DNA from: a virus
DNA length: 41,028 nucleotides
Direction: 5' to 3' (one strand)
IMG/VR virus record: IMGVR_UViG_3300046002_005060
Span: 1 to 41,028 of that record
The notes under the pieces are model-generated. The model ran no database searches and was not told the origin of the DNA. It was given only the letters and a program-made list of their open reading frames with translations. The position numbers and the translations under genes are program-made. Below are positions 8,132 to 30,892 of the stretch, one piece after another. Numbering within the stretch: the first letter of the stretch is position 1; every line of letters starts with the position of its first letter.

Positions 8132-8869
8132 TCAGGAGGTCTTGGATGTCGCTGGTGTCTTGGGTGTCCGCGGAGTGCGGTTTTGGTAAAGGGTGTAGGC
8201 GTCCATGCCCATCTGACCGAAGCTGGATACCAGCCCGGCGTTGGCCTGCGCCCGCATGCCGGCGGCCTGTCCTTGTGCCCCGAAGCCCTCGAGCCGCGCC
8301 TGTGCCATCTTCAGCTTGGCCGCGGAGCGCTCGGCCTTGATCTGGATCCCGAACAGGCTGGCATTCAGCCCGGCCTGCCGTCCTTGCATCGCCTCGATAT
8401 CCGCCTGCCGCTGGCCCCGGTTCCGGTTGATGCTGTCCGTCCACTTCATCTCCGCCTCGATCAGCGCTTGGTCTTCTGACGCACTGACAAGGAAGTCGAG
8501 CGGCGACCCGGTGGAAGCCAGCACCCCGGATTCCGACAGTCCGGCCCGCATCTGGCCGAAGTCCTTGCTGAACGCGTCCCGGCTCCGGCGGATGTTCTCC
8601 TGCGCCACCCGGCTCTCGGCCTCGACCTGTTGGCGCATGCCCTTGGCGTTGCGCTCATTGCTCACCTGCTGGGCCTTGGCGGCCGCCCGGTTGAGCCGCA
8701 GGCTTGCGATGGTCTGCTGGCTTTGCAGCATGGCCGCCTGCTCCTGCGCCTGCGCGTTGAGCATGCCGAACTGCTCCTGCGTGGCGGCCGCCTTGCGTTG
8801 GGCCGAGTAGGACATGCCTGCCCCCACGGCCTGAACCCCGATTGCGATTGCTGCTGCTGTGAAGCCCAT
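8132..8869 (-). CDS. Internal virion protein, T7 gp14-like
   Basis: 245 aa. It begins with a short hydrophobic, Gly/Ala-rich segment (residues 2-20) and continues as long Ala/Gln/Arg-rich helices with coiled-coil character. SESGVLASTGSPLDFLV sits near the middle. The pattern (N-terminal membrane-like segment, then Gln/Ala-rich helices, next to a hydrolase-bearing core protein) is typical of the smallest ejected core protein in short-tailed phages. It likely inserts into the outer or inner membrane during DNA entry (inference). The end is a small T/P/K-rich tail. Confidence 0.75.
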   Translation of the reverse strand: MGFTAAAIAIGVQAVGAGMSYSAQRKAAATQEQFGMLNAQAQEQAAMLQSQQTIASLRLNRAAAKAQQVSNERNAKGMRQQVEAESRVAQENIRRSRDAFSKDFGQMRAGLSESGVLASTGSPLDFLVSASEDQALIEAEMKWTDSINRNRGQRQADIEAMQGRQAGLNASLFGIQIKAERSAAKLKMAQARLEGFGAQGQAAGMRAQANAGLVSSFGQMGMDAYTLYQNRTPRTPKTPATSKTS

Positions 8870-20117: not shown

Positions 20118-20165
20118 GTTTGACATTGTTTGACATTGTTTGACAGGCGTTGACATCGTTTGACC
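20118..20165. repeat. Five TTGAC units at exact 10-bp spacing
   Basis: TTGAC starts at 20120, 20130, 20140, 20150 and 20160, giving five units in phase with about one helical turn. The first units are GTTTGACATT. The array ends 3 bp before the ATG at 20115 (as read on the minus strand) and lies 350-400 bp upstream of terS. It could be an operator or a packaging recognition site (both inference). Confidence 0.75.
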
Positions 20166-22240: not shown

Positions 22241-22426
22241 TTATTGGCCGGCCTTGAGCCGGGCGAGGCGCAGCCGTTTCCGCCGCGGCTTGCATCCACT
22301 TCGATGCACCAAATCTCTAGCCATCCGGTGGCATGGGCTGCCAATAACTGGCAGTAGTCGCGTTTCGATCGCGGCGCACATGACGTCTACCATCAGGACG
22401 AGGTCGCTATAAGAGGGCTGGTTCAT
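22241..22426 (-). CDS. Hypothetical small basic protein
   Basis: 61 aa. An N-terminal helix (SYSDLVLMVDVMCAAIETR) is followed by a strongly basic tail (CKPRRKRLRLARLKAGQ). It shares 4 bp with the end of the helicase-loader gene, supporting co-translation. A role next to replication genes is plausible but unknown. Confidence 0.5.
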   Translation of the reverse strand: MNQPSYSDLVLMVDVMCAAIETRLLPVIGSPCHRMARDLVHRSGCKPRRKRLRLARLKAGQ

Positions 22427-23043
22427 CTGGTGGCGTAGTCAGCGGTCGTGCAGTCCACGTGGACGTTGCGGTCGCGGATCAGGCGGCTGCCGATCCGCTC
22501 ATCCCGCTGCCTCCAGGTGTCTGGGCTCAGGTTCGTCGTGATCACCGTCCACTGCCCGAGGCGGCTCTGGAGCATGCCGTGCAGCAGGCCCAGCGTGGCC
22601 GGCGTCTGGTGCTCGGCCCCGGCGTCATCGATCACCAGCACCTCCGCGTCACAGGCCCACCGCAGCGCCCGGTTGATGTCGTCCTTCGACTGGTAGCGCC
22701 GGCAGAGATCCACCCAGTCCAGCCAGTGCGACCGCCGCGGGAAGGCCTCGTAGATGCCGCGGGCCAGCATCGACTTGCCGGTGCCGCTGCGTCCCCACAG
22801 CGTCAGCCAGCGGCCGTTGGGCTTGCCGCGGGTCGGCCGCTTGGCCGGGATCTCCCGCACAAGGTCACCAGCACTCTTCCCCATTTTCATCAAGACTGGG
22901 TCCTGGTGGTGCCTGAACCCCGGAAACCGTACCGGCATGGCCACCGCCGCAATTACCGGAGGTGTTGAGGCTGGGCTGTCCGGCGAGGAGAGGCTCTGCA
23001 TTGCGGGTAAGAGCCGGGCGATTCGTTGTTCGATTGTGTCCAT
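22423..23043 (-). CDS. DnaC-like helicase loader (AAA+ ATPase)
   Basis: 206 aa. Walker A GRSGTGKS (84-91), Walker B EVLVIDDAG (134-142), sensor-1 ITTN (168-171) and an Arg-rich RIGSRLIRD (183-191) identify a DnaC/IstB-type ATPase, the class that loads the host DnaB helicase. It follows the O-like gene, as lambda P follows O. Its first about 60 codons are shared out of frame with the end of the O-like gene; those residues are Pro/Ser-rich and probably a linker or the helicase contact. Confidence 0.85.
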   Translation of the reverse strand: MDTIEQRIARLLPAMQSLSSPDSPASTPPVIAAVAMPVRFPGFRHHQDPVLMKMGKSAGDLVREIPAKRPTRGKPNGRWLTLWGRSGTGKSMLARGIYEAFPRRSHWLDWVDLCRRYQSKDDINRALRWACDAEVLVIDDAGAEHQTPATLGLLHGMLQSRLGQWTVITTNLSPDTWRQRDERIGSRLIRDRNVHVDCTTADYATR

Positions 23044-23680
23044 TTGGTGAGTGATTGGGTGCGTATTGGAGCCGGTCCCAGACCAGCCCCTGCCATCCGT
23101 TGGAGATGGCCGCGGTGATGGCCATGGCGCTGAGCTCCGCCCCGTGCCGGGCGCATTCCGTCAGGGTGTTGCGGGCCGCCCGTGCGGTCCAGCGCTTGAC
23201 GGGGTAGGCCCGGTAGAGCTCGGCCCGGTGCAGGCACCAGTCGGCCCACACGTCGCGGAAGGCCGGCAGCATGAGCTCCAGCGGCAGCGGCTCCTCGTCG
23301 GCCGCGGTGATGTCGGCCTCGATGTTCCCGGCCTTCCCGCCCCGCCCCTCGCGTATACGCACACGCGCCGTGGGTGTGGGTGTGGGTGTGGGGGCGGGGG
23401 TGGGGAGGATAGGGGGTGTGGGGGAAAGGAGGGGAGGGGGAGGGGGAGAGGGGGCCATGTCGTTTGCATGTCGCGACATGGTTTCGACATGCTCCGACAT
23501 GCTTTCGACATGGTCCGACATGGTTTCGACATGCTTCGACATGCGATAACGCCGACACCTCTCAGCATTGCTGGCCTTCCTCTTCCCGTCCGGCGGAGTG
23601 ATCGTGATCCCTCCATCAGCGGCAATGGCCACGGTGCTCCCGGCGGCCACCAGAGCGATGATATCGGCAGGGGTCAGCAT
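22865..23680 (-). CDS. O-like replication initiator carrying an internal iteron array
   Basis: 271 aa. An N-terminal region with RKASNAERCRRYRMSK is followed by heptads HVETMSD-HVESMSE-HVETMSR (50-71), a Pro/Thr-rich linker (78-104), and a C-terminal helical domain with FRDVWADWCLHRAEL and AITAAISNGWQGLVWDRL, a pattern typical of the C-terminal part of phage replisome-organiser proteins. The heptads are the translation of the CGACATG repeats. Organisation parallels lambda O: iterons inside the initiator gene, followed by a helicase loader. No classical winged helix is obvious in the N-terminus, so the DNA-binding part is uncertain. Confidence 0.7.
   Translation of the reverse strand: MLTPADIIALVAAGSTVAIAADGGITITPPDGKRKASNAERCRRYRMSKHVETMSDHVESMSEHVETMSRHANDMAPSPPPPPLLSPTPPILPTPAPTPTPTPTARVRIREGRGGKAGNIEADITAADEEPLPLELMLPAFRDVWADWCLHRAELYRAYPVKRWTARAARNTLTECARHGAELSAMAITAAISNGWQGLVWDRLQYAPNHSPNGHNRTTNRPALTRNAEPLLAGQPSLNTSGNCGGGHAGTVSGVQAPPGPSLDENGEECW
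23361..23455 (+). repeat. G-rich purine tract next to iterons
   Basis: The plus strand consists mainly of G with T and A (GTGGGTGTGGGTGTGGGTGT, then GGGGGAGGGGGAGAGGGGG-like runs). It encodes the Pro/Thr linker on the other strand. Many G3+ runs could form G-quadruplexes. It borders the iterons at 23456. Confidence 0.8.
23456..23543. repeat. Iteron array, candidate replication origin
   Basis: CGACATG occurs at 23474, 23485, 23495, 23506, 23516, 23527 and 23537 (spacing 11,10,11,10,11,10; mean 10.5 bp). Two reverse copies CATGTCG lie at 23456 and 23467; the inner one forms the 14-bp palindrome CATGTCGCGACATG (23467-23480). The array lies within the initiator gene, as in lambda. Origin function is inferred. 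Confidence 0.8.
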
Positions 23681-24438
23681 GGCGTCATGAATGCTTGGAT
23701 GAAGGCCGCGGCGACTTGCGGGACGATGGCGTTGCCGAAGCCCTTAAGCGCGTGGCGTTCCACGACGACGGATAGCCCATCGCATTGCAGTAGACCGCGC
23801 TGATCACCTTCCAAGACACGCCTTGCCCCAGCAAATGGGTCGCCAGCGAGGGAGAGTGTCTGAGGCGCTGTGAGAGGAATGCATTGCTGCGGCTGATATC
23901 CTTCCCGTCCCTCGCCGCTGGTGTGGGCACCCCAAAATAACCGCTTCCTTTCATGGTCCGCCCCAAAGGCACCAGCTGGCAATACGGCCGCCGCGACGGC
24001 GTAACCACACGCCTCCAAGTCACTGGCCGCTTCATCCCACCATCCTTTGCCAACAGCTGCTGCAACCTGCTCTCCAACGATAATTGCAGGTTGGCACTCT
24101 GCAACGAGCCGGCCGAATACTGGCCAGAGGTGGCGGTGATCTGCTTTCCCTTTGCCTCCTCCATGGGCCACATTACCAACGGAGAATGGCTGGCAGGGGC
24201 AGGAGCCGGTCCAGACGGGGCGGTCGGTGGGCCATCCGGCCAGTTCCAAAGCCAAGGACCATCCTCCGATTCCCGCGAAGAAGTGGCACTGGGTGTATTT
24301 GCTGAGTTCATGCGGTTTGATTTCCGTTATTGATCGCTCGTCCACATCGCCGGGCGGGATCAGCCCCTCGGCAATCAGTTGCCGGAGCCATGCGGCGGCA
24401 GAGGCATCGAATTCGTTGTAAAAGTTCAGGCTCATCAC
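23674..24438 (-). CDS. DNA cytosine-C5 methyltransferase
   Basis: 254 aa, short for the family. Motif I HFFAGIGGWSLAL (52-64), motif IV GSCPCQPFS with the catalytic Cys82, motif VI as GEQV (122-125; usually E-N-V), motif VIII DHERKRLFW (161-169) and motif X GFGNAIVPQVAAA near the C-terminus are all present. The target-recognition region is very short. It probably methylates phage DNA to avoid host restriction. No partner endonuclease gene is nearby. It overlaps RusA and the O-like gene by a few bases. Alternative start: the second Met. Confidence 0.88.
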   Translation of the reverse strand: MMSLNFYNEFDASAAAWLRQLIAEGLIPPGDVDERSITEIKPHELSKYTQCHFFAGIGGWSLALELAGWPTDRPVWTGSCPCQPFSVGNVAHGGGKGKADHRHLWPVFGRLVAECQPAIIVGEQVAAAVGKGWWDEAASDLEACGYAVAAAVLPAGAFGADHERKRLFWGAHTSGEGREGYQPQQCIPLTAPQTLSLAGDPFAGARRVLEGDQRGLLQCDGLSVVVERHALKGFGNAIVPQVAAAFIQAFMTPC

Positions 24439-24851
24439 AGTTCCATCATGTTCACCGCGCAGCCGTACCGGGTCGCGCCGTAGAGTTTGTCGGTTGAGAG
24501 CTCGACGATCTGGCAGTCGTCATGCCATGCGCCGGCGTCCGTCAGGGCATCCATCACCGCCTTCACCAGATTGTCGATGTCCGGCTTTACCGTGTGCCGC
24601 ACAGGGGCCCCGGCGGTCAGGGCCCCCTTGCTGGTATAGTGGTACTGAGGCCGCGGCATGGCAAAGTTCAGTGACAACCGCACCGGCCCTTCCATGGGCT
24701 CCCGAGGCTCCGCCCGCCAAGCCAGCCGGATAGCCGTCTTCCATGCGTCTGCCGTCCTCGGTGTGTAGACGTGGCCGTTGGAGCGGATCATGCGCACCCG
24801 CGGCTGGGCCACCGGGGTGCCGGCCACAAAGAAGAAGGCGAAGGCTTTCAC
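24435..24851 (-). CDS. rusA: RusA-like Holliday junction resolvase
   Basis: 138 aa, normal for RusA. It has VAGTPVAQPRVRM near the start and the signature KPDIDNLVKAVMDAL (89-103) with Asp91, Asp93 and Asp101 as metal ligands, followed by DD (111-112). It resolves branched recombination intermediates, so it fits with the Bet and YqaJ genes upstream. It shares 4 bp with both neighbours. Confidence 0.92.
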   Translation of the reverse strand: MKAFAFFFVAGTPVAQPRVRMIRSNGHVYTPRTADAWKTAIRLAWRAEPREPMEGPVRLSLNFAMPRPQYHYTSKGALTAGAPVRHTVKPDIDNLVKAVMDALTDAGAWHDDCQIVELSTDKLYGATRYGCAVNMMEL

Positions 24852-25258
24852 TTATTCTCGCCCTCCCACTGCCGCATCAATTTGCTGAATGCATTGCACT
24901 GAAGCCGGACCTCGCGGGCATCCTCCTCAGCCTGGACCTCGCCAAAACAACTGACGCAGTTGGGTAGCCTACAGTGAGCGTCTCCGCAGTCCAGCACCAC
25001 ATCCACCGCTAGATTAATCGCCTGCCGCAGGGCCTCGGCCAGCTGCCGGGCCGTGACCCTGCCCTTGTCCATCATCAGCTTCACCTCCGCCTTGTCCTTA
25101 GGGCAGTCGATCCACTCCCTCACGGGCTTGAGCACGGCGGGTTCAATCGCCGTCGCCCGCATGTAGGACGACGGCTCCTTCCGGCCCTCCTTCTGGCGCA
25201 CGCTGATGCGGCTCGTCGCATTTTCTTTGCGGGGTTTCCCGTATGATGGTGCGTTCAT
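24848..25258 (-). CDS. Hypothetical protein of recombination module
   Basis: 136 aa. The basic N-terminus is followed by KVREW-like and Lys/Met segments, then DVVLDCGDAHCRLPNCVSCFGE, which holds C...C...C-x-x-C and could bind zinc. It ends with a helix (FSKLMRQWEGENK). It overlaps rusA by 4 bp. Unrecognised. Confidence 0.55.
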   Translation of the reverse strand: MNAPSYGKPRKENATSRISVRQKEGRKEPSSYMRATAIEPAVLKPVREWIDCPKDKAEVKLMMDKGRVTARQLAEALRQAINLAVDVVLDCGDAHCRLPNCVSCFGEVQAEEDAREVRLQCNAFSKLMRQWEGENK

Positions 25259-25260
25259 GA

Positions 25261-25563
25261 CTAAAATTCGATGTCGTCCTGCTGATCACGATAATTGGCC
25301 GTTGCGCCGCGGTTGACCGGCTCGGCCCGGCTCACAGGTGGGCGCATCTGCTGGGCCAGCGGGGCCTCATCCTTTATCTCGGCCTTGAGGGACAGCATCT
25401 TGCCGGTGACCTTACCCGTCTCGTCTCGGAGCTCCCGCTTCCATCCGGCCAGCTTGTATATCACTCCTTCAATATTGATCGTGCCGCGGTAGTCAGGGCG
25501 CTTCTCGTTGTCGCCCTTGTCGTTGATGAACAGAGCTCCGCTGTTGGTGTTGTCGTATGCCAT
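25261..25563 (-). CDS. Small conserved recombination-module protein, DUF736-like
   Basis: 100 aa from ATG at 25563. NSGALFINDKGDNEKRPDYR then GTINIEGVIYKLAGWKRE is a pattern shared by small beta-rich proteins that accompany phage recombination genes; a single-strand DNA-binding role has been suggested by context. The C-terminus is disordered with acidic end (DDIEF), as in SSB proteins. The leader is A/C-rich (CCAACACCAAAACCAACACC). Confidence 0.6.
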   Translation of the reverse strand: MAYDNTNSGALFINDKGDNEKRPDYRGTINIEGVIYKLAGWKRELRDETGKVTGKMLSLKAEIKDEAPLAQQMRPPVSRAEPVNRGATANYRDQQDDIEF

Positions 25564-29019: not shown

Positions 29020-29178
29020 GGGGTTACGGGATGTGGTTGGATTTAATTGAATAAATGGGGTGGTGGTTGCTTGTTGACCGGGTGTCTATACACCTGTGTC
29101 AATGGGGTGTATACCCACCAGAGTCAACACTTTTTTTCTTACTGTTGAAAAAATATTCCCTTTGGGGTAATTTGCGGA
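29020..29178. promoter_or_regulatory. Divergent control region with two palindromic operators
   Basis: Two short palindromes: GGTGT-CTAT-ACACC-type at 29081-29094 and GGGT-GTAT-ACCC at 29105-29116, centres 23 bp apart. A plus-strand promoter follows at 29145-29173. The region separates the early minus-strand operon (from 29019) from the plus-strand RHH gene, as in a lysogeny switch. Confidence 0.6.
29145..29173 (+). promoter_or_regulatory. Sigma70-like promoter of the RHH gene
   Basis: -35 TTGAAA (29145-29150), exactly 17-bp spacer, -10 TAATTT (29168-29173). The ATG follows 5 bp later, so transcription should start at or within the first codon: a leaderless mRNA. Confidence 0.65.
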
Positions 29179-29364
29179 ATGGCAAACCAACGAAAAAAGG
29201 GTAAAAGGCAGGTGGCGTTCTGGGTCACCGAGGAGGAGAAAATCCAGCTGAACGAAACCGCTACTGAGGCGGGGTACGACAACCTCGCCGACTGGCTGCG
29301 GTCCCTGATTACCGTGCCCGAAGATCCCGACAATCCCGACAATAAACCCCCACCTCAAGATTAA
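29179..29364 (+). CDS. RHH-like regulator, candidate lysogeny repressor
   Basis: 61 aa. The basic start (NQRKKGKRQVAFWVTEEEK) gives the strand and first helix, and TATEAGYDNLADWLRSLI the second helix, of a ribbon-helix-helix fold (Arc/CopG type). The tail is acidic and Pro-rich. One of only two plus-strand genes, divergent from the early operon and next to the integrase, the usual position of a phage repressor. No cI-like gene is present elsewhere, so this is the best candidate (inference). Confidence 0.65.
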   Translation: MANQRKKGKRQVAFWVTEEEKIQLNETATEAGYDNLADWLRSLITVPEDPDNPDNKPPPQD

Positions 29365-29519: not shown

Positions 29520-30611
29520 TCAGAACAGGTCCGGCATCGCATCCAAGGCGGTGCGCTTGGCCGCCGAGTCAATGTGCGTGTACATCGCCGAGACCGCCGG
29601 CGAGTCGTGGCCGATGATATCCATCACCACGGCCTCCGAGACCCCGGCGTTCTTCATCATGCTGGTGGCCGTGTGCCGGAAGCTGTGGAAGCTGATGTCG
29701 CTCAGGTCACGCTTGGCATCCCGGCCAGTGGTCGCCTTCCGGTGCGGCAGAGGCGGCCTCAGGCCGGCCTCAACGAGCAGCTCGCGGAACTGGCCGGATA
29801 GCGTCGACGCCCGCCCACTTTCCCCCGCTTGAATGGAGCCGGCGGATTCCGGGTGGACGAACGCCGCGCCCCCCTCCTTCGGCCGCACCATGCCGGCAAG
29901 GTGTCGAGCCAATGGAGCCGCTATGGGGATGGACATCTGCCGGCCGGTCTTGCGGCTGACAAACCGGATCTCGCGGCCGGTGCTGTCGATGTAGCTCCAC
30001 CGGAACAGCCCGATATCGTTGAGCCGCTGGCCGGTGTAGATGCCAAAAAGGATCAGGGACCGCATCTCTCCGGTCGCATGCTCCAACAGGGTGCCGATCT
30101 CCTCGAGCGTGAACGGCCGGCGCTGCACCCGCCCCTCGTCGCGCAGCGCCTTGATCCCCTCCGCCGGGTTCTTGGCCAGCAGGTCATCGCGCCGGGCTGC
30201 CTCGAAGAACATGCGCAGGATCTTGATGCCGAGGTTCGCCGTCATGGGGGTGATCCGCTGCAACATCACCGTCCGGTAGGCCACCACGTCCGCCTTGGTG
30301 ATGCTGACCAACGGCTCCTTCGCCCGGGCCCCAAGGTAGGCGAGGAAGCCCAGGGTGCGGGAGGAATAACCAGAGTAAGTCGAGACGCTCACCGCGCCCT
30401 TGTGACCGGCCAGCCACTGGTCACGCCACCCCTCGACCGTCAGTGCCGGCGGAGGTGGAGGCACACTAGCCTCCTGCTCCCATACCTCTGCCAATTTTGC
30501 CGCCGCCCGTTTGTCCGGCAGCTTGGTCGTCCGCTGAATCCGCTTCCCGGTGTGGTCGGTGTAGCATGCTACCCAGTTTGCGCTGTCGGGTCTGCGTTTG
30601 ATGGTGGCCAT
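29520..30611 (-). CDS. int: Tyrosine integrase
   Basis: 363 aa from ATG at 30611 (MATIKRRPDS); the frame stays open upstream to a GTG at 30728 but that part translates the attP-like repeats and is not protein-like. N-terminal arm-type DNA-binding strand section (NWVACYTDHTGKRIQRTTK), SAM-like core-binding domain (TVEGWRDQW onward), catalytic domain with Arg196 (IYTGQRLNDIG), Lys221 region, His309-x-x-Arg312 (HSFRHT), His335 (GHDS) and the nucleophile Tyr344 (MYTHID). All key residues are present, so it should be active. The style of the N-terminal region reminds me of Verrucomicrobiota integrases (recollection only). Confidence 0.93.
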   Translation of the reverse strand: MATIKRRPDSANWVACYTDHTGKRIQRTTKLPDKRAAAKLAEVWEQEASVPPPPPALTVEGWRDQWLAGHKGAVSVSTYSGYSSRTLGFLAYLGARAKEPLVSITKADVVAYRTVMLQRITPMTANLGIKILRMFFEAARRDDLLAKNPAEGIKALRDEGRVQRRPFTLEEIGTLLEHATGEMRSLILFGIYTGQRLNDIGLFRWSYIDSTGREIRFVSRKTGRQMSIPIAAPLARHLAGMVRPKEGGAAFVHPESAGSIQAGESGRASTLSGQFRELLVEAGLRPPLPHRKATTGRDAKRDLSDISFHSFRHTATSMMKNAGVSEAVVMDIIGHDSPAVSAMYTHIDSAAKRTALDAMPDLF

Positions 30612-30892
30612 CCGCACCCATACCGCACACAAAACCGCACACAACCGCACACGTTCTGGGGGTTTCTGGTGTACAATCTTTGCCGATTTTCCCCGTAGCG
30701 GCAGGGCCACGCCCCCCCTATGATCCACCTTCCGGTTGGAGTGGGGTCTTTTTATTCAGCCCTTTCTACGGGGAAATCAGCCTCGAACAGACCGGACCGC
30801 ACACAAAACCGCACACAAACCTCACAGGTATCTAGTGGAGCCTGTGTGCGTCTGGTGTGCAAAATTGATCCAGTCGGACCAGATGCCGCCTC
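30612..30892. other. attP-like region with direct and inverted repeats
   Basis: No gene. A 23-bp identical direct repeat (two ACCGCACACAA-type units) lies at 30622-30644 and 30796-30818, with a third ACCGCACAC after the first copy. TCTGGTGTACAA (30665) resembles TCTGGTGTGCAA (30852). An 11-bp inverted repeat TTTCCCCGTAG / CTACGGGGAAA lies at 30688-30698 and 30766-30776. A repeat-rich region beside the integrase start suits arm sites flanking an attachment core (inference). Confidence 0.6.

Follow-up and report, generated by a model that had tools for sequence, protein, structure and literature searches.

Helically phased CGACATG repeats inside an O-like initiator gene as the probable initiator-binding part of a phage replication origin

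The window analysed here, i.e., the complete 41,028 nucleotides of the IMG/VR virus record IMGVR_UViG_3300046002_005060, belongs to a temperate phage and carries on its minus strand an O-like replication initiator gene (22865–23680) encoding 271 amino acids, assigned through its C-terminal half only (phrog_678, 'replication initiation O-like', 7e-6; phrog_18589, 3e-6). The ATG of this gene overlaps the stop codon of a DNA cytosine methyltransferase gene (ATGCTGA; 23674–24438, minus strand; phrog_363, 3.5e-66), which is given here as context only; RusA, exonuclease and Bet genes are also found upstream. In epsilon15, too, a DNA cytosine methyltransferase gene immediately precedes the initiator (L141, 345–1514), and a short N-terminal remnant is all that is present in the relative L063 (about 1980–2132). 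On the other side, the initiator gene is adjoined by the gene of a DnaC-like helicase loader (22423–23043, minus strand; phrog_50, 2e-21).

In the coding orientation, the initiator shows a short N-terminus, the basic patch NAERCRRYR (residues 38–46; 23543–23569, minus strand), the repeat array, a proline-rich linker and a C-terminal domain (residues 121–216; 23033–23320, minus strand) that is common to lambda-O-like initiators and presumably contacts the loader. The patch abuts the first iteron, so closely that its last base is the first base of the array, and is a candidate DNA-reading element that covaries with the iterons, as described below. The C-terminal domain belongs to the same family as that of the O proteins of mEpX1 and Gifsy-2, where it stands behind a Phage_rep_O domain; in Bordetella phage IFTN2 it stands behind DUF1376. 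In the initiator of the window, the PHROG and Pfam profiles recognised no Phage_rep_O (PF04492) or winged-helix N-terminus and no other N-terminal DNA-binding domain, and Pfam gave no match to the plasmid Rep winged-helix domain or to the bZIP profile. The bZIP basic region has an N-x7-R spacing within a short basic stretch; the patch shares this spacing, as a resemblance only, and is not a bZIP by the Pfam profile.

The array itself occupies 23456–23543. An exact search located CGACATG on the plus strand at 23474, 23485, 23495, 23506, 23516, 23527 and 23537, i.e., seven direct copies (23474–23543) with successive spacings of 11, 10, 11, 10, 11 and 10 bp and a mean pitch of 10.5 bp, and on the minus strand at 23456–23462 and 23467–23473, which are 11 bp apart. 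The tract-proximal end of the array is formed by a 14-bp palindrome, CATGTCGCGACATG (23467–23480). The seven words with their alternating spacing, the two inverted copies and the palindrome had all been proposed in a sequence-only reading of this DNA, and each was recovered exactly. The direct repeats are in helical phase, as in the iteron plasmids. Just three further copies of CGACATG exist in the whole 41 kb, and the array is the sole place where at least five copies of one 7-mer fall inside 90 bp, barring homopolymer C and the overlapping register GACATGC. In the initiator frame it encodes HVETMSD, HVESMSE and HVETMSR, followed by HANDM.

The CGACATG repeat is selected as DNA. When the codons were resampled at the usage of the phage with the protein kept, at most six copies of CGACATG were obtained, the nine observed copies appeared in 0/20000 trials, and any 7-mer reached a maximum of eight; likewise, within-gene codon shuffling gave a mean of 37 repeat pairs and a maximum of 80, versus 134 observed. 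Within the array, four of four His codons are CAT (usage 31%), three of three Val codons are GTC (usage 25%), and all the Met-Ser pairs are written with TCG (usage 14%). Neither 10 nor 11 is divisible by three, so the same DNA word encodes H-V in one reading and M-S in another, and its inverted copies give R-H or D-M; therefore, a duplication at the protein level alone is insufficient to create the array. It has to be considered that the repeat could be a coiled-coil heptad produced by tandem duplication, with a functionless regularity in the DNA, as Val and Met occupy a/d-like heptad positions and the AlphaFold2 model of the initiator, poor as it is (pLDDT 40), draws a single helix over residues 38–74. 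Nevertheless, the reading of the 10.5-bp sub-repeat in several frames and from either strand, the recoding result, and a relative (L063) that has an array without heptads make this explanation highly improbable, and the coiled coil was rejected given that the heptads are not conserved. The earlier proposals that the heptad is a by-product of the 21-bp DNA period, and that helically phased iterons acting as DNA lie inside a replication initiator gene, are supported.

Close relatives could not be used to compare DNA with protein conservation: only two were found among the viral contigs (L005 and L006), whose contigs both break off within the linker before reaching the array, and scanning of bacterial genome contigs found none. 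The closest full relative is L063, with a C-terminal domain 62% identical, which keeps the order of patch, array, proline linker with tract, and C-terminus. At the same place as in the window its array consists of CGTTAC and the inverted GTAACG, and the heptads are gone; therefore, the DNA array outlasts the peptide that it encodes. Relatives that keep the heptads and lose the motif, which the sequence-only reading had named as a sign of selection on the protein only, were sought, and L063 is the opposite case. In a survey of 36 non-redundant O-like genes, repeats were compared with within-gene synonymous shuffles, and the excess peaked at lags of 11 (157 versus 28 expected), 22 (151 versus 19) and 44 (63 versus 15), all of which break the reading frame. 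As a positive control, the O gene of lambda with its annotated iterons passed the repeat-excess test (58 versus a mean of 19 and a maximum of 39).

Just past the tract-side inverted CGACATG, at the place of the unwinding element of lambda, there is an unbroken, GC-rich pyrimidine run of 35 nt on the coding strand (23420–23454, minus strand). This run goes beyond what the protein imposes: CCG, the Pro codon that the phage uses most, is absent from it, and protein-preserving recoding reproduced it in 0/5000 trials. It is conserved in L063 (27 nt, recoding 0/5000) and in L005 (20 nt, p<0.01), and many other initiators have a purine tract right after the array. The run is part of a stretch able to form a G-quadruplex (23372–23454, plus strand); across the whole window such motifs showed no enrichment. 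An A+T-rich unwinding element was not found, since the maximum A+T content in any 40 bp of 23300–23700 is 52%. The A+T-rich element of lambda is known to be extremely strand-asymmetric (PMC5043065), and its asymmetric run could be explained by the protein sequence alone (shuffle p 0.23). The asymmetry of this element is kept in the window and its A+T-richness is not, so that this in-gene phage origin, if it is one, separates two properties that are joined in lambda. GC skew was also considered as evidence for an origin and was rejected as too gene-driven.

It is useful to compare this arrangement with known origins. The origin of lambda contains four 18-bp inverted-repeat iterons bound by O dimers and a 39-bp A+T-rich element (PMC6022878, PMC7466680). 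As in lambda, the repeated sites of the window are under DNA-level selection in the initiator-gene linker that joins the N- and C-terminal parts, they adjoin a strand-asymmetric purine/pyrimidine tract, and the loader is encoded next. On the other hand, the window has 7-bp direct words, one per helical turn, with a single inverted boundary, instead of 18–19 bp inverted repeats; its tract is GC-rich and its initiator lacks the Phage_rep_O domain. The earlier likening to lambda therefore stands for the position in the linker of the gene, and fails for the type of iteron, the A+T-rich element and the winged-helix N-terminus. In SPP1, oriL also has direct repeats within an initiator gene, gene 38 (PMC6316719); however, this phage possesses an A+T-rich unwinding element and a further site, oriR. 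The window has a candidate second array, formed by the 10-bp repeat ATGTCAAAC (20118–20164, minus strand) just upstream of the ORF preceding the small terminase gene, which is not conserved and was rejected as another origin: the cassette is absent from L006, and in L005 a (TTGGYGG)n array takes its place. The iteron plasmids P1, F, RK2 and R6K have direct repeats in helical phase (PMC5043065), as the window does, but in the window the iterons are intragenic and the initiator gave no match to a plasmid Rep domain. The origin of the window would most likely be of the lambda-like in-gene type, combining direct iterons as in plasmids with an asymmetric, GC-rich tract.

Phased repeats are typical of operators too, and the array could instead regulate the replication operon, bound by the initiator or by another phage protein, with the origin elsewhere. 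A small NikA-like ORF of the ribbon-helix-helix-like kind (29179–29364), which has tandem repeats of its own, and arrays of GACATG outside long ORFs in two other phages (L208 and L222) would fit such a role. However, no promoter-like site was found within 22300–25300, and unrelated phages also have arrays in the initiator linker, a position that matches the annotated iterons of lambda; an operator is accordingly considered quite improbable.

The relationship between patch and iteron was clearest for the peptide NAERQRRYR. Fetched by the peptide alone, 41 non-redundant loci were obtained, and at least three copies of CGTTAC lie within 200 bp in 21 of them (mean 3.17 copies, versus 0.40 in windows drawn at random from these loci); CGTTAC is by far the top hexamer near this peptide. 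The remaining 20 loci have the patch without an array. In the ORFs with NAERQRRYR there are 171 copies of CGTTAC, in five frame and strand classes, versus 62 expected under synonymous shuffling (maximum 78). These proteins vary in kind (YdaU-like, DnaD-like, short-N and terminase-like) and in their surrounding linkers, and the bulk of the array precedes the patch in 10 loci and follows it in 13. Among initiators, gathered by different routes and not as a random sample, CGTTAC is present in all 11 with a Q patch, L063 with AAEKQKAYR included, versus 1 of 55 others (p=1e-11, and 1e-9 among loci of similar GC content). The Rac YdaU (L144) has CGTTAC without the Q patch. This tracking of the iteron by the basic patch suggests that the patch reads the iterons. 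Arrays of CGTTAC together with NAERQRRYR were also seen in proteins not recognised as initiators (L019, L038, L016, L042, L045, L049, L051 and L033); the last of these resembles a terminase small subunit, and a link to packaging sites is possible.

Arrays of the word of the window were also searched for by their spacing. GACATG at a pitch of 10–11 bp occurs in 71 viral contigs, versus 13 at a control pitch of 13–14 bp. Six of 20 tested ORFs with CATGTC arrays (L211, L218, L233, L242, L261 and L277) match PHROG families of replication initiation, DnaD-like loaders or replisome organizers, and none of 10 control-pitch ORFs matched any family. The fixed 11/10 triple of CGACATG was found in no other contig. 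Outside long ORFs, and at a pitch of 10 bp, L208 has seven copies of CATGTCGGGC (8139–8204) and L222 has nine of CATGTC (8576–8671). L211 (IMGVR_UViG_3300021399_004507), a replisome organizer fetched by DNA pattern alone, resembles the window in its NAERC[RK]RYR patch, in its case NAERCKRYR, in an array of CATGTC, in its case five copies at spacings of 10, 11, 11 and 10, in the TGTCGCGACA palindrome at the array end, and in an adjoining purine/pyrimidine tract; it differs in having an unrelated C-terminal domain (phrog_13246) and a tract that is A-rich and purine on the coding strand. NAERC[RK]RYR with CATGTC is thus present in two otherwise unrelated proteins, and this link rests on two phages because L211 was found through its array. 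Further NAERC patches were sought by short tblastn and a genome search, without success, and the INPHARED relatives of L211 mostly lack the patch. In L252, L239 and L261, initiator-like genes combine CATGTC arrays with patches of other types; therefore, a code, if real, is not one-to-one.

A third case is the wHTH family of Pseudomonas phi1, Aeromonas pAEv1818 and E. coli Tritos, whose initiators have RK..QRER-type patches (in pAEv1818 the variant RERKNAQRERQR) and 7–11 copies of CGTGAC, mostly 10–11 bp apart within clusters. Each of these initiator genes (L416, L417 and L419) has two CGTGAC arrays, one of them within the N-terminal domain and the other in the linker. In this family patch and iteron differ together, i.e., CGTGAC in L416, L417 and L419, and 11 copies of CGAACG with SAERAKQWRER in the homolog L418. 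Patch and array are adjacent and phages exchange modules, so the pair could be inherited as one DNA cassette and the correlation reflect descent instead of recognition; this is somewhat unlikely in view of the joint changes among the wHTH homologs, of the array lying on either side of the patch, and of the differing linkers and kinds of protein. Another reading accepts the array as an origin but assigns recognition of the iterons to a host DnaA-like protein or to a separate phage HTH protein, given that the initiator of the window has no recognised DNA-binding domain; we regard this as unlikely, since iteron identity follows the own patch of the initiator across kinds of protein.

DNA-level selection, helical phasing, the gene family, the conserved layout and the covariation of patch and iteron are established. 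On this sequence evidence, the array is probably the initiator-binding part of the phage replication origin, lying within the gene for the O-like initiator of the phage and read by the patch. The initiator would bind the CGACATG words from one side of the helix, roughly once per turn, most likely with the basic helix NAERCRRYR entering one major groove after another; the inverted pair and the palindrome would form a head-to-head boundary on the side of the tract, the homopyrimidine tract may be the site of strand opening or helicase loading, and the C-terminal domain would recruit the DnaC-like loader encoded next. A broader proposal, for which we see somewhat less than an even chance, is that an interchangeable short basic motif, approximately A-[ED]-R-x-R-[RK]-x-R, present in many unrelated phage initiators and some other proteins, reads adjacent iterons by a simple code. 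In such a code NAERQRRYR may specify CGTTACG, NAERC[RK]RYR may specify CGACATG, (A/P)(E/D/Q)RK..QRER may specify CGTGACA and SAERAKQWRER may specify CGAACG. If the patch reads the iterons beside it, the gene of each such protein also contains the DNA address of that protein. The way in which a 9-residue patch covaries with a 6–7 bp site suggests a means of DNA recognition for initiators that lack a winged helix, and the pairing would allow origins and their partner proteins to be predicted from sequence in phages that were never cultured.

Two other repeats were noticed in the window. A 25-bp near-palindromic tandem repeat, GGGTGTATACACACC (29080–29127), lies upstream of the NikA-like ORF, and CCGCACACAA repeats (30612–30652 and 30796–30819) lie upstream of a tyrosine integrase gene (ORF about 29520–30615, minus strand) and are probably arm-type attachment sites.
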